Part shown: positions 24,005 through 27,958 of the stretch, piece after piece | Layout: each line of letters starts with the position of its first letter | Position numbering within the stretch: position 1 is the first letter of the stretch | Assembly (NCBI GenBank): GCA_012744275.1 | Contig: JAAYIE010000082.1 | Location: 1 to 32,688, forward strand | Direction of reading: 5' to 3' | DNA length: 32,688 bases | From: Desulfobulbaceae bacterium | GTDB taxonomy: Bacteria > Desulfobacterota > Desulfobulbia > Desulfobulbales > Desulfobulbaceae | The notes under the pieces: model-generated | The model's input: the letters and a program-made list of their open reading frames with translations, nothing else | Told to the model about the DNA's origin: nothing | Databases searched by the model: none | Translations under genes and position numbers: made by a program

Positions 24005-24119
24005 TCCAGCGCCGGAACCGGTGTCACCCGCTGCTCCTGTTTGAGCATGGATCTGCTGTTCCGGCCTTCGTATGTTTTCAATTGGTCCCGGTACGATTGA
24101 CCGGGAAAGGAGGCGCAAC

Positions 24120-24980
24120 ATGCAACTTGGTTTTATCGGACTTGGCCATCTGGGCAAGGCCATCTGTGGCCGGCTCATCGAATGCGGCAACGACATGGTC
24201 GTGTGGAACCGCAGCGCTGGCAAGGCAGAGGGACTCAAGGCCAAGGTCTTGTCTTCCCCTGCGGAAGTAGCCAGCCAGGCAGACATCATCCATGTCTGCC
24301 TCTTTGACAGCGCAGGCGTGCTGGAAGTGCTCACCCAGGAAAACGGCCTGCTCAAGGGCGATATTAAGGGCAAAATCATCATTGACCACAGCACCAACCA
24401 CTTCAAGGAAGTGCTGGCCTTCCACGAACTCTGCGCCAAGGCAGGTGCCTACTACCTGGAAGCGCCGGTACTCGGTAGTGTTGTTCCGGCCCAAAACGGG
24501 CAGTTGACCGTGGTGGTCAGCGGTGACAAGGCCGCCTACGACAAGGCCAAGCCAGTGCTCGATCAGGTGGGCTCAAGCGTGTTCTATCTGGGCGCGCCGG
24601 GCCAGTCCAGCAAGATGAAGCTGATCAACAACCTGGCCCTGGGCGGCTTTATGGCCATTCTGGGCGAAGCTGTGGCCTTTGCCGAATCTGTTGGTATCGA
24701 CAAGGCAGCGGCCCTGGATATCCTTGATGTGGGCGGCGGTAAATCCCTGGTGCTGAGCGGAAAAAAGGCCAAAATGCTCAACGATGATTTCTCCACCCAT
24801 TTTTCCACCAGCCTGATCTATAAAGATCTGCACTGCCTGCAGGATCTGGCCTACACTGAACAGCGCCCCCTATACATGGCAGCAACGACCAAGGAGATCT
24901 TTGCCCGCGCCATTGCCGAAGGCATGGGAGATCTGGATTTCTCCGCCGCCTACGCGGTATTTAAGAAGCAGATCAAATAA
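24120..24980 (+). CDS. NAD(P)-dependent beta-hydroxyacid dehydrogenase (HIBADH family)
   Basis: A 286-residue dehydrogenase with the Rossmann glycine motif GFIGLGHLG (4-12), the substrate loop EAPVLGSVVPAQNGQL (114-129), and the catalytic lysine Lys167 in GQSSKMKLINN. Relatives include 3-hydroxyisobutyrate dehydrogenase, tartronate semialdehyde reductase and glyoxylate/succinic semialdehyde reductases; the substrate cannot be assigned. Next to glcDF a glyoxylate or tartronate semialdehyde role would make sense, but that is inference. The ATG at 24120 has a very strong AAAGGAGG site 6 nt upstream; the longer frame from 24072 is rejected. It is 115 bp after glcF and closes with a strong terminator, so it is probably the last gene of that unit. 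Confidence 0.88.
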   Translation: MQLGFIGLGHLGKAICGRLIECGNDMVVWNRSAGKAEGLKAKVLSSPAEVASQADIIHVCLFDSAGVLEVLTQENGLLKGDIKGKIIIDHSTNHFKEVLAFHELCAKAGAYYLEAPVLGSVVPAQNGQLTVVVSGDKAAYDKAKPVLDQVGSSVFYLGAPGQSSKMKLINNLALGGFMAILGEAVAFAESVGIDKAAALDILDVGGGKSLVLSGKKAKMLNDDFSTHFSTSLIYKDLHCLQDLAYTEQRPLYMAATTKEIFARAIAEGMGDLDFSAAYAVFKKQIK

Positions 24981-25009: not shown

Positions 25010-25044
25010 CTGCAGGCCAGAAAATCTGGTCTGCAGTTTTTTTT
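25010..25044 (+). terminator. strong intrinsic terminator after the hydroxyacid dehydrogenase
   Basis: CTGCAG, a G-T pair and CCAGA pair with TCTGG and CTGCAG across an AAA loop (25010-25036), giving a 12-bp stem followed by eight T residues (25037-25044). Confidence 0.95.
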
Positions 25045-25059
25045 CGGAGCAGCCGGGTT

Positions 25060-25169
25060 CCAGATCAAAGATGCTATCAAAGGGGCAAGGGAAATGCGAC
25101 GCAGACGTACATAGAGGCACTTCGAAGAGAGCATTCCCCGAAGCCGACACAGATAGGGCTTTGATGTGG
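25060..25169. repeat. small inverted-repeat element after folP
   Basis: The ends CCAGATCAAAG (25060-25070) and CTTTGATGTGG (25159-25169) are inverted copies with one mismatch. Inside, GGGAAATGC (25090-25098) and GCATTCCC (25131-25138) pair with one bulge, so the whole 110 bp can fold. Its right 25 bp (25145-25169) recur with three mismatches at 26102-26126. It lies between the plus-strand terminator and the folP stop and encodes nothing recognisable. Confidence 0.5.
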
Positions 25170-25177
25170 CATTGGCA

Positions 25178-25978
25178 TTATTCCAATACCGCCTGCACTT
25201 TCAGCGCCTGTCTGGTGGCAGCCACATTATGTACCCGCAGGATGTCCATGTGGTGGCGAGCACAGAAGGCTGAGACCATGGCGGTGGCCAGATCACGCTC
25301 TACTGGTTTCTCTATTTGCAGGATCTCGCCCAGAAAACTCTTGCGCGAATGGCCGATCAAGACTGGGCAGCCATGCTGACGCAGGCTTTCCAGATTACGG
25401 AGCAGGGTGAGATTGTGTTCAAGGGTCTTGCCAAAGCCAAGCCCAGGGTCAACAATCATCCGTTTCCGCTCAATGCCTTGTTCCTCAAGCCAGTCAATAC
25501 GCCTGGCAAGATAGCTGTTAATTTCTACCACCACATCCCCGTAGTGGGGGGCTAGCTGCATGGTACGGGGTTGGCCCTGCATGTGCATGACTACTACCAT
25601 GGCCTGTGACTGCCGCAACACCTCCACCATGCCTGTATCGCCTTCCAGTGCGCTGATATCGTTAACAATATCTGCACCTGCGGCAAGCGCCTGTCTGGCC
25701 ACCTCTGCCTTGGTGGTATCCACAGAGACAGGAATGCTACTGAGCTTACGAATCGCCTTGATGGCAGGAAGTACACGGGCAAGTTCTTCCGCCACATCCA
25801 CTCCGGCTGATCCTGGCCGGGTGGATTCTCCGCCCACATCAATGATATCCGACCCATCGGTCAGCAGTTCTTCAATTCGGGCCTGCAACTGCTTTTCAGT
25901 GAGATAGCGGCCGCCGTCGGAAAAGGAATCTGGGGTGATATTTAATATACCCATGATTTTGGGTTGTGCCGTGTGCAT
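25178..25978 (-). CDS. folP: Dihydropteroate synthase
   Basis: A 266-residue TIM-barrel enzyme that joins 6-hydroxymethyl-dihydropterin diphosphate to p-aminobenzoate in folate synthesis; it is the sulfonamide target. Signatures are MGILNITPDSFSDGG (8-22), DVGGESTRPG (about 45-54), the SVDTTK strand, DPGLGFGKT near 180 and GHSRKSFLG near 210, with a final RVHNV. The open frame reaches 26029 by a TTG, but the ATG at 25978 starts at the family N-terminus with GAGG 8 nt before it. It lies downstream of ftsH on the same strand, an arrangement common in bacteria, but here a terminator-shaped hairpin stands in the gap. Confidence 0.96.
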   Translation of the reverse strand: MHTAQPKIMGILNITPDSFSDGGRYLTEKQLQARIEELLTDGSDIIDVGGESTRPGSAGVDVAEELARVLPAIKAIRKLSSIPVSVDTTKAEVARQALAAGADIVNDISALEGDTGMVEVLRQSQAMVVVMHMQGQPRTMQLAPHYGDVVVEINSYLARRIDWLEEQGIERKRMIVDPGLGFGKTLEHNLTLLRNLESLRQHGCPVLIGHSRKSFLGEILQIEKPVERDLATAMVSAFCARHHMDILRVHNVAATRQALKVQAVLE

Positions 25979-26001
25979 ACAAATAACCTCTTTCCCATCA
26001 A

Positions 26002-26038
26002 AGAAAAATCGGCCTTGCTTGTGGCACAAGCAAGGCCG
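26002..26038 (-). terminator. terminator-like hairpin immediately before the folP ribosome site
   Basis: A 13-bp near-perfect stem (26010-26022 with 26026-26038; GGCCTTGCTTGT and its complement) with a 3-nt loop is followed on the minus strand by a T-run (complement of A residues at 26004-26008). Only about 24 nt separate it from the folP ATG. It could end the ftsH transcript or act as an attenuator for folP. Confidence 0.8.
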
Positions 26039-26101
26039 GCAATGCCTAAACTCAATATAAACTTGATGCTCTTATGGAAAATTCCGGTTCTCAATCAAAG
26101 T

Positions 26102-26126
26102 CGACAGAGATAGCGCTTTGATATGG
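26102..26126. repeat. 25-bp repeat after ftsH, second copy of the one after folP
   Basis: This 25-bp sequence matches 25145-25169 at 22 positions and, like it, begins 8 nt beyond a stop codon read on the minus strand. A neighbouring ATCAAAG pairs with CTTTGAT here (7-bp arms, 15-nt loop, 26094-26122). A partial inverted end, CCCATCAAAG, lies at 25994-26003. Confidence 0.55.
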
Positions 26127-26134
26127 AACCAGTA

Positions 26135-27958
26135 TCAGGCTGGAAGTTCCTCTTCCTGACCTGCCAGCTCAACCTCGTTGATAATGGCCACCATGTCATC
26201 CAACATGATGGTCTCTTTGTCGAGCAGGGCTGCAGCAATCGCGTCCAGGCTGGCACGGTGTTCCTTAAGCATGGTGGTCACCTTCTCATTGGCCTGGATA
26301 ATGATGCTCTTCACCGCCGAATCAATCTTGCGGGCGGTTTCTTCGCTATAGTCTCTATGTTGGGCGATCTCGCGGCCCAGAAAGATATGCTCTTCTTTTT
26401 TACCGTAGGCCAGGGGGCCCAGTTCTTCACTCATGCCCCACTCGCACACCATTTTCCTGGCCAATTCGGTGGCGCGCTCGATATCGTTGCCTGCACCAGT
26501 AGTAATCTCGTTGAACACCAGTTTTTCCGCCACCCGGCCGCCAAAAAGGATGGCAATGGAGTTGAGGAGAAAACCTTTGGCGTGGGTGTATTTTTCGTCC
26601 ATGGGCAGTTGCATGGTCAAACCCAGGGCACGACCACGGGGGATAATGGTCACCTTGTGAATCGGATCGGTACCAGGCAAAAGATAGGCCACCAAGGCGT
26701 GCCCAGCCTCATGGTAAGCGGTGATCTCCTTTTCCTTGGGGCTGATGATCATTGATTTGCGCTCTGCACCCATCATGACCTTATCCTTGGCCCGTTCCAG
26801 CAACTCGGAATCCACCTCGTTGCGGTTCTCCCGTGCCGCCATCAGGGCAGCTTCATTGACCAGATTTTCCAGATCCGCGCCGGAAAAACCGGGCGTACCC
26901 CGGGCAATGACTGCCATGTCCACGTCTGCAGCCAGCTTCGTTCTCTTGCCGTAGATATCCAATATCTTTTCACGACCCTTCACGTCCGGCACCGGCACGA
27001 TCACCTGCCGGTCGAAACGGCCGGGCCTGAGCAGAGCAGGATCAAGAACATCTGGCCGGTTAGTGGCGGCTATAATAATAACCCCGTCATTGCCTTCAAA
27101 GCCGTCCATCTCAACCAGAAGCTGGTTTAAAGTTTGTTCGCGTTCATCATGACCGCCGCCCAGTCCTGCACCACGGTGGCGGCCAACCGCGTCGATCTCA
27201 TCGATAAAAATAATGCAGGGTGCATGCTTTTTGCCTTGGGCAAAGAGATCGCGTACCCGGGAGGCGCCCACACCCACAAACATCTCCACAAAATCCGAAC
27301 CAGAGATGGTGAAAAAAGGCACTCCGGCCTCACCGGCAATGGCACGGGCGAGCAGGGTCTTGCCGGTTCCCGGCGAACCAGCCAGAAGTACTCCCTTGGG
27401 TATGCGGCCACCCAAACGGGTAAACTTTTGCGGGTCGCGGAGGAAATCAATGATTTCTTCCAACTCCTCCTTAGCCTCATCAATGCCAGCCACATCTTTG
27501 AAAGTAACCTTAACCTCGCCCTCTTCCTGCAGTTTGGCCCTGGTTTTACCAAAGGAAAGCGCTCCACCTTTGCCCCCCATTTGCATCTGGCGCATGAAAA
27601 AGACCCAGATTCCAATCAAAAGCAGTAGTGGAAACCAGGAAATGAGCACTGACAGGTACCAGGGCATTTCCTTGGGTTTTTCCACGGCAATATTCACCTT
27701 GGACTGGCGCAGCATGGGAATCAGCTCGGCGTCATCCGGGGCGATAGTCTTGAACGGGCGGCCGTCCTGGCCAATACCGCTAATTTCACGATCCTGGATA
27801 CTCACCTTACTAATCGAGCCACGCTCCACATGTGACCAGAATTCACTGTACGTGATGGATTGGCTCGGCTTGACCGGGCTGTTGAGAAACTGGAACATGA
27901 AAACCATGGTCAGCAGGATCACTAGCCACATGGTCAAGTTTTTATAAAAGGTATTCAA
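26135..27958 (-). CDS. ftsH: ATP-dependent zinc metalloprotease FtsH
   Basis: A 607-residue membrane-anchored AAA+ protease. Two transmembrane helices (about 10-25 and 101-122) flank a small periplasmic domain. The AAA module has Walker A GSPGTGKT (194-201), Walker [12 protein letters not shown] and the second region of homology [19 protein letters not shown]. The protease domain carries the zinc motif HEAGH near 417. It hexamerises and degrades misfolded membrane proteins and short-lived regulators. The start is TTG 27958 with a GGAGAGG site about 6 nt upstream; the next in-frame ATG would cut into the first helix. It is 90 bp downstream of carB and upstream of folP. The C-terminus ends in an acidic tail EEELPA. 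Confidence 0.97.

Follow-up and report, generated by a model that had tools for sequence, protein, structure and literature searches.

BOX repeats of the pneumococcus are multi-copy and thought to be mobile; passages of their description count 58 coding sequences (CDSs) that overlap BOX, with BOX supplying the stop at the extreme 3' end in 36 CDSs and no strong evidence of truncation reported there (PMC3049150). REPs tagged with GTAG/CGTC are palindromic and lie mostly downstream of genes, and, in the sections of the source devoted to them, their GTAG termini often provide a TAG stop (PMC3733652). Likewise, excerpts of PMC2759123 describe ERIC (RU-1) as a 127-bp sequence with inverted ends, a hairpin, target duplicates and insertions at the 3' ends of genes, and the Coxiella MITE QMITE2 is placed mainly in 3' untranslated and intergenic regions by the part of PMC5896051 that covers it. 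For the IS1031 group of IS5, passages of PMC12016507 give a preference for TNA targets and a 3-bp duplicate. Furthermore, multicopy palindromic intergenic sequences have been catalogued in the Geobacteraceae, a related group within the phylum, as seen in portions of three papers (PMC2700814, PMC2996986, PMC3543383).

The DNA analyzed in this study (the window) is a stretch of 32,688 nucleotides from a Desulfobulbaceae bacterium. Its first-pass annotation had described a 25-bp repeat beyond the stop codons of two minus-strand genes, folP (dihydropteroate synthase; 25178-26029; PF00809, E 2.5e-85) and ftsH (AAA protease; 26135-27958; PF01434, E 3.1e-70, with PF00004 and PF06480), and this was read correctly: segments 25145-25169 and 26102-26126 mismatch at 3 of 25 positions (22/25 identical), and 8 nt separate the repeat from the stop at both folP (25178-25180) and ftsH (26135-26137). 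As a unit the 25-mer is real but incomplete, being the left end of a longer element, ~128 bp at folP and a 53-bp short form at ftsH. The constant distance from stop to repeat follows from the stop codon serving as the element's left junction triplet.

At the folP 3' end, the full-length element of ~128 bp occupies 25050-25180 of the minus strand (25050-25180 with R2, a model with structure; 25056-25179 with R1, a sequence-only profile), and its left triplet is the folP stop codon TAA (25178-25180, minus strand), which the sequence shares with the left TNA junction of the element. Terminal inverted repeats, with limits set by eye, lie on the same strand at 25159-25177 (left; the 25-mer is its inner part) and 25053-25070 (right; the outer end has decayed and has no clean TNA). 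Used as a blastn query, the folP copy returned at least 40 and at least 38 matching places, and its strand folds with a z of -4.0. The short form at the ftsH 3' end (26082-26137, minus strand; hairpin of -19.4 kcal/mol) consists of the TGA stop (26135-26137) and a 53-bp body, and matches profile positions 2-43 with an E of 3e-5. Both inverted ends are present, which rules out a mere truncated left end. Its right junction is TTT, with no clean duplicate; indeed, neither window copy has a clean right-hand duplicate. Two further hairpins lie close by. Between ftsH and folP, positions 26010-26038 resemble a terminator, with a perfect 14-bp inverted repeat that on the minus strand leads into T's; a similar hairpin is present by eye in a relative (L044) that has no element there. 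At 25010-25044, a GC-rich hairpin with eight T's (by eye) faces the end of folP and comes after a plus-strand gene for an NAD-binding dehydrogenase (24072-24980).

Alignment of 34 copies gave an element of ~128 bp (body ~124 bp) with imperfect ~20-bp inverted ends (TTCCAATTCCATATCAAAG / CTTTGATCTGGAACTGGAA) and a hairpin core. The first-pass annotation had proposed a search for more copies with the stop spacing kept, and such a search was productive: further copies were found and the spacing was kept. With 101 bases round the folP copy, 23 matching places were obtained in the genome, and with 216 bases at least 40 (the best 40 of 92 candidates, all matching); the 26-mer of the ftsH copy, allowed up to 3 mismatches, found only itself in the genome. 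R1 counted at least 150 copies in the element's own genome G000 (150 of 150 scored) and at least 138 in the congener G014 (138 of 150 scored), with 18 of 150 scored in G011 and 1 of 150 in G004. The inverted-end pattern occurred 62 + 62 times on the two strands of G000, 118 + 113 times in G014 and 73 + 75 times in G160, and a reversed-pattern control gave 0 to 2 per strand. Mean identity among 95 copies was 72%. The element is short and multi-copy, carries no transposase gene and has terminal inverted repeats, as MITEs do, and we regard it as non-autonomous and MITE-like, with many diverged copies and a few short forms.

Some individual copies deserve mention. Pairs of inverted end-like motifs lie 76 and 46 bp apart at two loci (L209 and L241) and are perhaps short forms like the ftsH copy. 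Genes at L169 (G000:C159) and L190 (G000:C146), on different contigs, are 93% identical over the last 120 residues, and each has the element on its TGA stop; the element may have been copied together with the gene in a duplication, or the pair may reflect an assembly or strain mixture. On the antisense strand of the genus-type consensus, AAGGAGG lies eight bases upstream of an ATG that opens a 6-codon frame, a feature absent from the far consensus (both by eye).

Insertion very probably duplicates TNA, as indicated by the agreement of the middle base between the left and right triplets. This base was equal in 61 of 79 copies (33.2 expected), and none of 5000 shuffles reached 61; the test used the 79 of 106 copies with clear ends, and only the middle base was informative, the first and third triplet bases varying too little. 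Alike copies in G160 and G053 read, by eye, TTA/TTA, TAA/TAA and TGA/TGA. By eye, the orthologue comparisons revealed no empty site whose flanks could be aligned on both sides, and the duplication therefore rests on junction statistics. At intergenic copies, the third junction base was A in 41 of 46 on the left and 31 of 46 on the right; as A is commoner on the left, a 2-bp TN duplicate with the A belonging to the element is possible. Beyond TNA, no clear wider flank motif was seen by eye in 39 sense or 46 intergenic copies. The TNA target and 3-bp duplicate of the IS1031-group type are thus both found here, with the 2-bp alternative possible.

When simple open frames were tabulated, 83 same-strand gene ends lay near the left end of 102 copies, and 44 gene ends fell exactly on element positions 1-3 (31 TAA, 10 TGA and 3 TAG). 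In a stricter test, each element was excised together with one triplet and genes were predicted on the resulting empty site; the position actually used was then set against every TNA site, in either orientation, within that space. The stop table used 106 of 121 matches (at least 45 bits), and 90 of the 106 copies were tested, as 7 had an end missing, 4 were at the edge of a contig and 5 lay inside a called gene. These copies came from the best-scoring R1 places, which supplied about 106 copies from two genomes out of a total of at least 288, and gene ends were those of the simple gene caller of this analysis, except in the RefSeq-annotated Trichlorobacter lovleyi case given below.

The left triplet was the stop of the adjacent gene, in sense, in 39 of 90 testable copies (9.0 expected), whereas the element lay on a stop in antisense in 5 of 90 (9.0 expected), which is not an enrichment; the 39:5 ratio of sense to antisense has a P of 1.4e-7. 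When sites closer than 25 or 40 nt to a gene start were disallowed, the expected number of sense-stop copies rose to 12.6 or 14.5, and allowing only the 60 nt after stops gave 14.2 expected for 67 copies. The excess held under these stricter nulls (Poisson P of at most 7.2e-8), and exact sense-stop placement exceeded the prediction from the remaining TNA sites in those intergenic spaces by a factor of 2.7 to 4.3. From 1 to 60 nt after stops the orientation reverses, with 8 sense and 22 antisense copies (Fisher P 6e-8), the 22 including copies between convergent genes that were also counted among the 39. Sense-stop placement was seen in each of the two genomes (21/47 and 18/48), and copies near the consensus were more biased (19/36 at 110 bits or more versus 11/34 below 95 bits). 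The earlier suggestion of a small mobile repeat inserted beside stops is therefore supported, with the refinement that the stop itself is the left junction triplet of the element. A small hairpin with the stop in its loop had also been pointed out at each gene; it can be read at both sites but was dismissed as a meaningful feature, because stems of at least 4 bp round the stop occurred in 20 of 44 copies, compared with a mean of 22.5 after upstream sequences were shuffled among copies, and are thus attributable to chance.

Element-free orthologues were used to ask how the same genes end where no element is present. Pairs were taken from matches of at least 77% identity, among the matches listed, together with ftsH by eye; weaker matches (paralogues and FolP of other genera) were left out. 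In 5 of 7 pairs the element-free stop was displaced by no more than one codon. Three of these pairs (L216, L185 and L196) have their stops at an identical codon, another (L231) is off by one codon, and the ftsH pair, in which the element-free relative likewise ends PA-TGA with a one-codon indel just upstream, was counted as having the same end (4/7 in total). The stop lay elsewhere in the other two: the element-bearing gene of L194 at 3844 is 7 codons longer than its element-free orthologue, and folP with the element ends 5 codons earlier than in its relative. The nearest named FolP record, at 77% identity, comes from a Desulfobulbaceae MAG (L044), which has an element ~640 bp beyond folP and none at the folP stop. 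Given these shared ends, most of the stops seem to pre-date insertion, with folP as the exception. Two pairs have an insertion common to both members (L194 with L228, and L175 with L140 of G011), and some insertions are therefore probably older than the species split.

Within the genus, the window copy had a blastn match in 4 of 23 genomes, its own included; at an E of 1e-5, R1 had matches in 18 of 193 genomes from the order, in some cases confined to the core, and with R2 the element was detected in 27 of 297 genomes from the phylum, representing 20 of 198 genera. In seven genomes outside the genus, 40 testable copies comprised 9 sense, 1 antisense and 30 other placements (2.7 expected for each orientation at stops). 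This count was confined to matches with both ends (2 from 9 regions in G444, 6 from 9 in G057) and set aside 2 copies at edges and 9 inside called genes; because its junctions were assigned by a rule biased towards equal triplets, the resulting triplet table is not taken as evidence of duplication. G160 and G053, whose rows in that count are the same copies as in their separate count, are weak alone (3 sense and 1 antisense of 18; 1.4 expected). On plasmid pGLOV01 of Trichlorobacter lovleyi, the element opens with TAA where RefSeq ends GLOV_RS18160, which provides one check of the pattern with independent annotation. Searched against plasmids and phages, the window copy gave no match, and searches of plasmids with far copies matched a single plasmid and nothing else. 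Core-only matches (positions ~23-103) with different ends were seen in G184 and G192 (L257, L259, L267 and L268), possibly from a related element with other termini.

The arms of the hairpin co-vary. On average, pairing between a copy's own arms was 2.1 kcal/mol stronger than pairing with arms taken from the nearest copy (95 copies, P 2e-7, the comparisons not being fully independent), and against the five nearest copies the difference was -2.0 kcal/mol for intergenic versus -2.9 kcal/mol for stop copies. Compensatory changes were present at 12 of 28 consensus pairs in a wide alignment of 22 far and 4 genus copies. RNAalifold predicted no pair from the first 29 copies and 28 pairs from the wider set. 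This co-variation suggests that arm pairing is important for the element, either in its movement or in an RNA function. Both strands folded far better than shuffles (mean z of -4.1 and -6.3; 40 of 95 copies shuffled), and of the two the antisense strand had the greater stability in 89 of 95 copies, and likewise in 16 of the 21 far copies (2 of the 21, L287 and L289, were left out of one far-copy step). G-U counts differed little between the strands and the difference changed sign in the far family, so no inference was made about the functional strand.

An RNA 3'-end signal had been the other initial suggestion, and in the sense of an intrinsic terminator it did not hold. No T-run follows the hairpin, the right end reading GGAATA in the alignments; ftsH has a separate terminator-like hairpin of its own, with a similar one in a relative; and the window had 0 Rfam matches at the gathering score. 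Rfam searches of 4 loci down to an E of 0.01 returned tRNAs and two matches below the gathering score, none at an element. Beyond termination, the element may serve mRNA tails in some other way.

REPs are mobilized by Y1 transposases (RAYT) and are not known to duplicate their target. The present element, at 128 bp and with a TNA duplicate, is not a 20-40 bp GTAG/CGTC-tagged palindrome, and a REP of the RAYT kind was rejected. Y1 enzymes were likewise discarded as the mover, since Y1_Tnp was found in 4 of 5 genomes and not in G475, which has at least 11 copies; no element stood beside a Y1 transposase in the 10 Y1 loci examined of 15 matches. PF01609 transposases were rejected as well: none of five such loci had element ends on both sides, although a whole element lay ~0.4 kb from the match at one PF01609 locus (L272). 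DUF4096, a part of IS1031-group (IS5) transposases, was present in 1 of 9 element-bearing genomes searched and was also rejected. An interval of 2.3 kb between two end-like motifs in G000:C88 contained no transposase-like frame by eye. As this search for an autonomous copy or a transposase with the element's ends, which covered two Pfam families and one end pattern among the matches listed in limited stretches, found none, the element was filed as MITE-like and not as a MITE of a named IS. An IS5-type enzyme may since have been lost from the genomes.

Taken together, these data make it probable that the repeat is a MITE-like, TNA-duplicating element, whose excess at stops would arise mainly through survival, combined with an orientation-dependent effect of its hairpin. 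The enzyme would place the element by duplicating TNA, and an insertion on TAA or TGA would rebuild the stop, spare the protein and hence survive. Stop insertions may be the least harmful, as the stop is rebuilt and the site is farthest from the ribosome site of the next gene, and the transcribed hairpin, acting differently in the two orientations, would sort the survivors. By itself, the rebuilt stop explains tolerance and part of the excess, but not the orientation or the bias of near-consensus copies; these would need, in addition, either targeting or an effect of the transcribed element that differs with its orientation. We incline slightly towards selection after insertion as the source of the excess. 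Against it, near-consensus copies might be expected to be less biased under selection, yet they are more so. That observation also favours a possible, though unlikely, targeting by an insertion machinery that recognizes sense stops, through translation termination, the transcript or strand asymmetry at gene ends. Excess at the exact codon in one orientation (39 versus 5), its reversal 1-60 nt downstream (8 versus 22) and the same placement in other families of the phylum would fit such recognition. However, the flanks show no clear preference beyond TNA, the alike copies of G160 and G053 are little biased, and no enzyme is known for it. Its broadest form, a phylum-wide mobile hairpin whose machinery reads sense stops (for example, where translation or transcription complexes end) and rebuilds the stop at each insertion, strikes us as distinctly doubtful.

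Retention as a functional RNA hairpin in mRNA tails, affecting stability, processing or coupling to the next gene and by now a host regulatory part, appears rather unlikely. The advantage of own-arm pairing, the compensatory changes, the folding of both strands beyond shuffles in the copies tested and the orientation bias would all agree with it, but arm co-variation could serve mobility alone, intergenic copies co-vary nearly as much as stop copies, RNAalifold gave no pairs on the first 29 copies, and a match exists in just four genomes of the genus. We find it improbable that the element creates the stop, inserting within coding sequence and truncating the gene with its own left-end TAA. The shorter folP and some copies with TAA on the left and TAC, TAT or TAG on the right would be expected from truncation, whereas five of the seven element-free orthologues end at the same place or one codon off, one element-bearing gene is longer and not shorter, and TGA and TAG occur as left triplets (10 and 3 of 44). 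Chance or gene-duplication matches beside two stops could be proposed from the window, which holds just two copies with 22/25 identity; more than 100 copies elsewhere in the genome refute this, and the match is almost certainly not of that origin.

The placement at issue in the survival reading that we favour is sharply stop- and orientation-specific, and its frequency can be measured against every other possible site in the spaces concerned. Choice of gene ends versus mere tolerance is therefore directly testable. In this group, a motif at a constant distance past stop codons can turn out to be a piece of mobile DNA instead of a terminator, and many genes have an annotated 3' end that abuts repeat sequence.

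Compared with the described systems, the element resembles BOX in being multi-copy, in mobility and in supplying stops, while the BOX sequence differs and its build is modular; the passages of PMC3049150 give neither a TNA duplicate nor a test of orientation at stops. REPs are 20-40 bp with tagged ends in the sections describing them, unlike the 128-bp element with its duplicated TNA and TAA or TGA stops (PMC3733652). ERIC is enterobacterial and duplicates TA, whereas the element has TNA with A, T or G in the middle, and the ERIC excerpts speak of fusions and read-through and not of stops regenerated by the duplicate (PMC2759123). Duplicate type and host, as given in the description of ERIC, thus set the element apart from it. 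QMITE2, in the part of its description concerned, differs in its variable 7-11 bp duplicates and its length of 150-190 bp (PMC5896051), and the IS1031 group is autonomous, with ends in the member described in those passages that differ from the element's (PMC12016507). Members of the present element may be among the catalogued Geobacteraceae palindromes, for which the portions cited name no placement at stop codons (PMC2700814, PMC2996986, PMC3543383). The family was not named in the titles or abstracts of the literature found, a weak indication, as subscription papers and supplements fell mostly outside that scope. Overall, stop-supplying repeats are already in print, and the element is a new family of a known kind with an unusually sharp placement.
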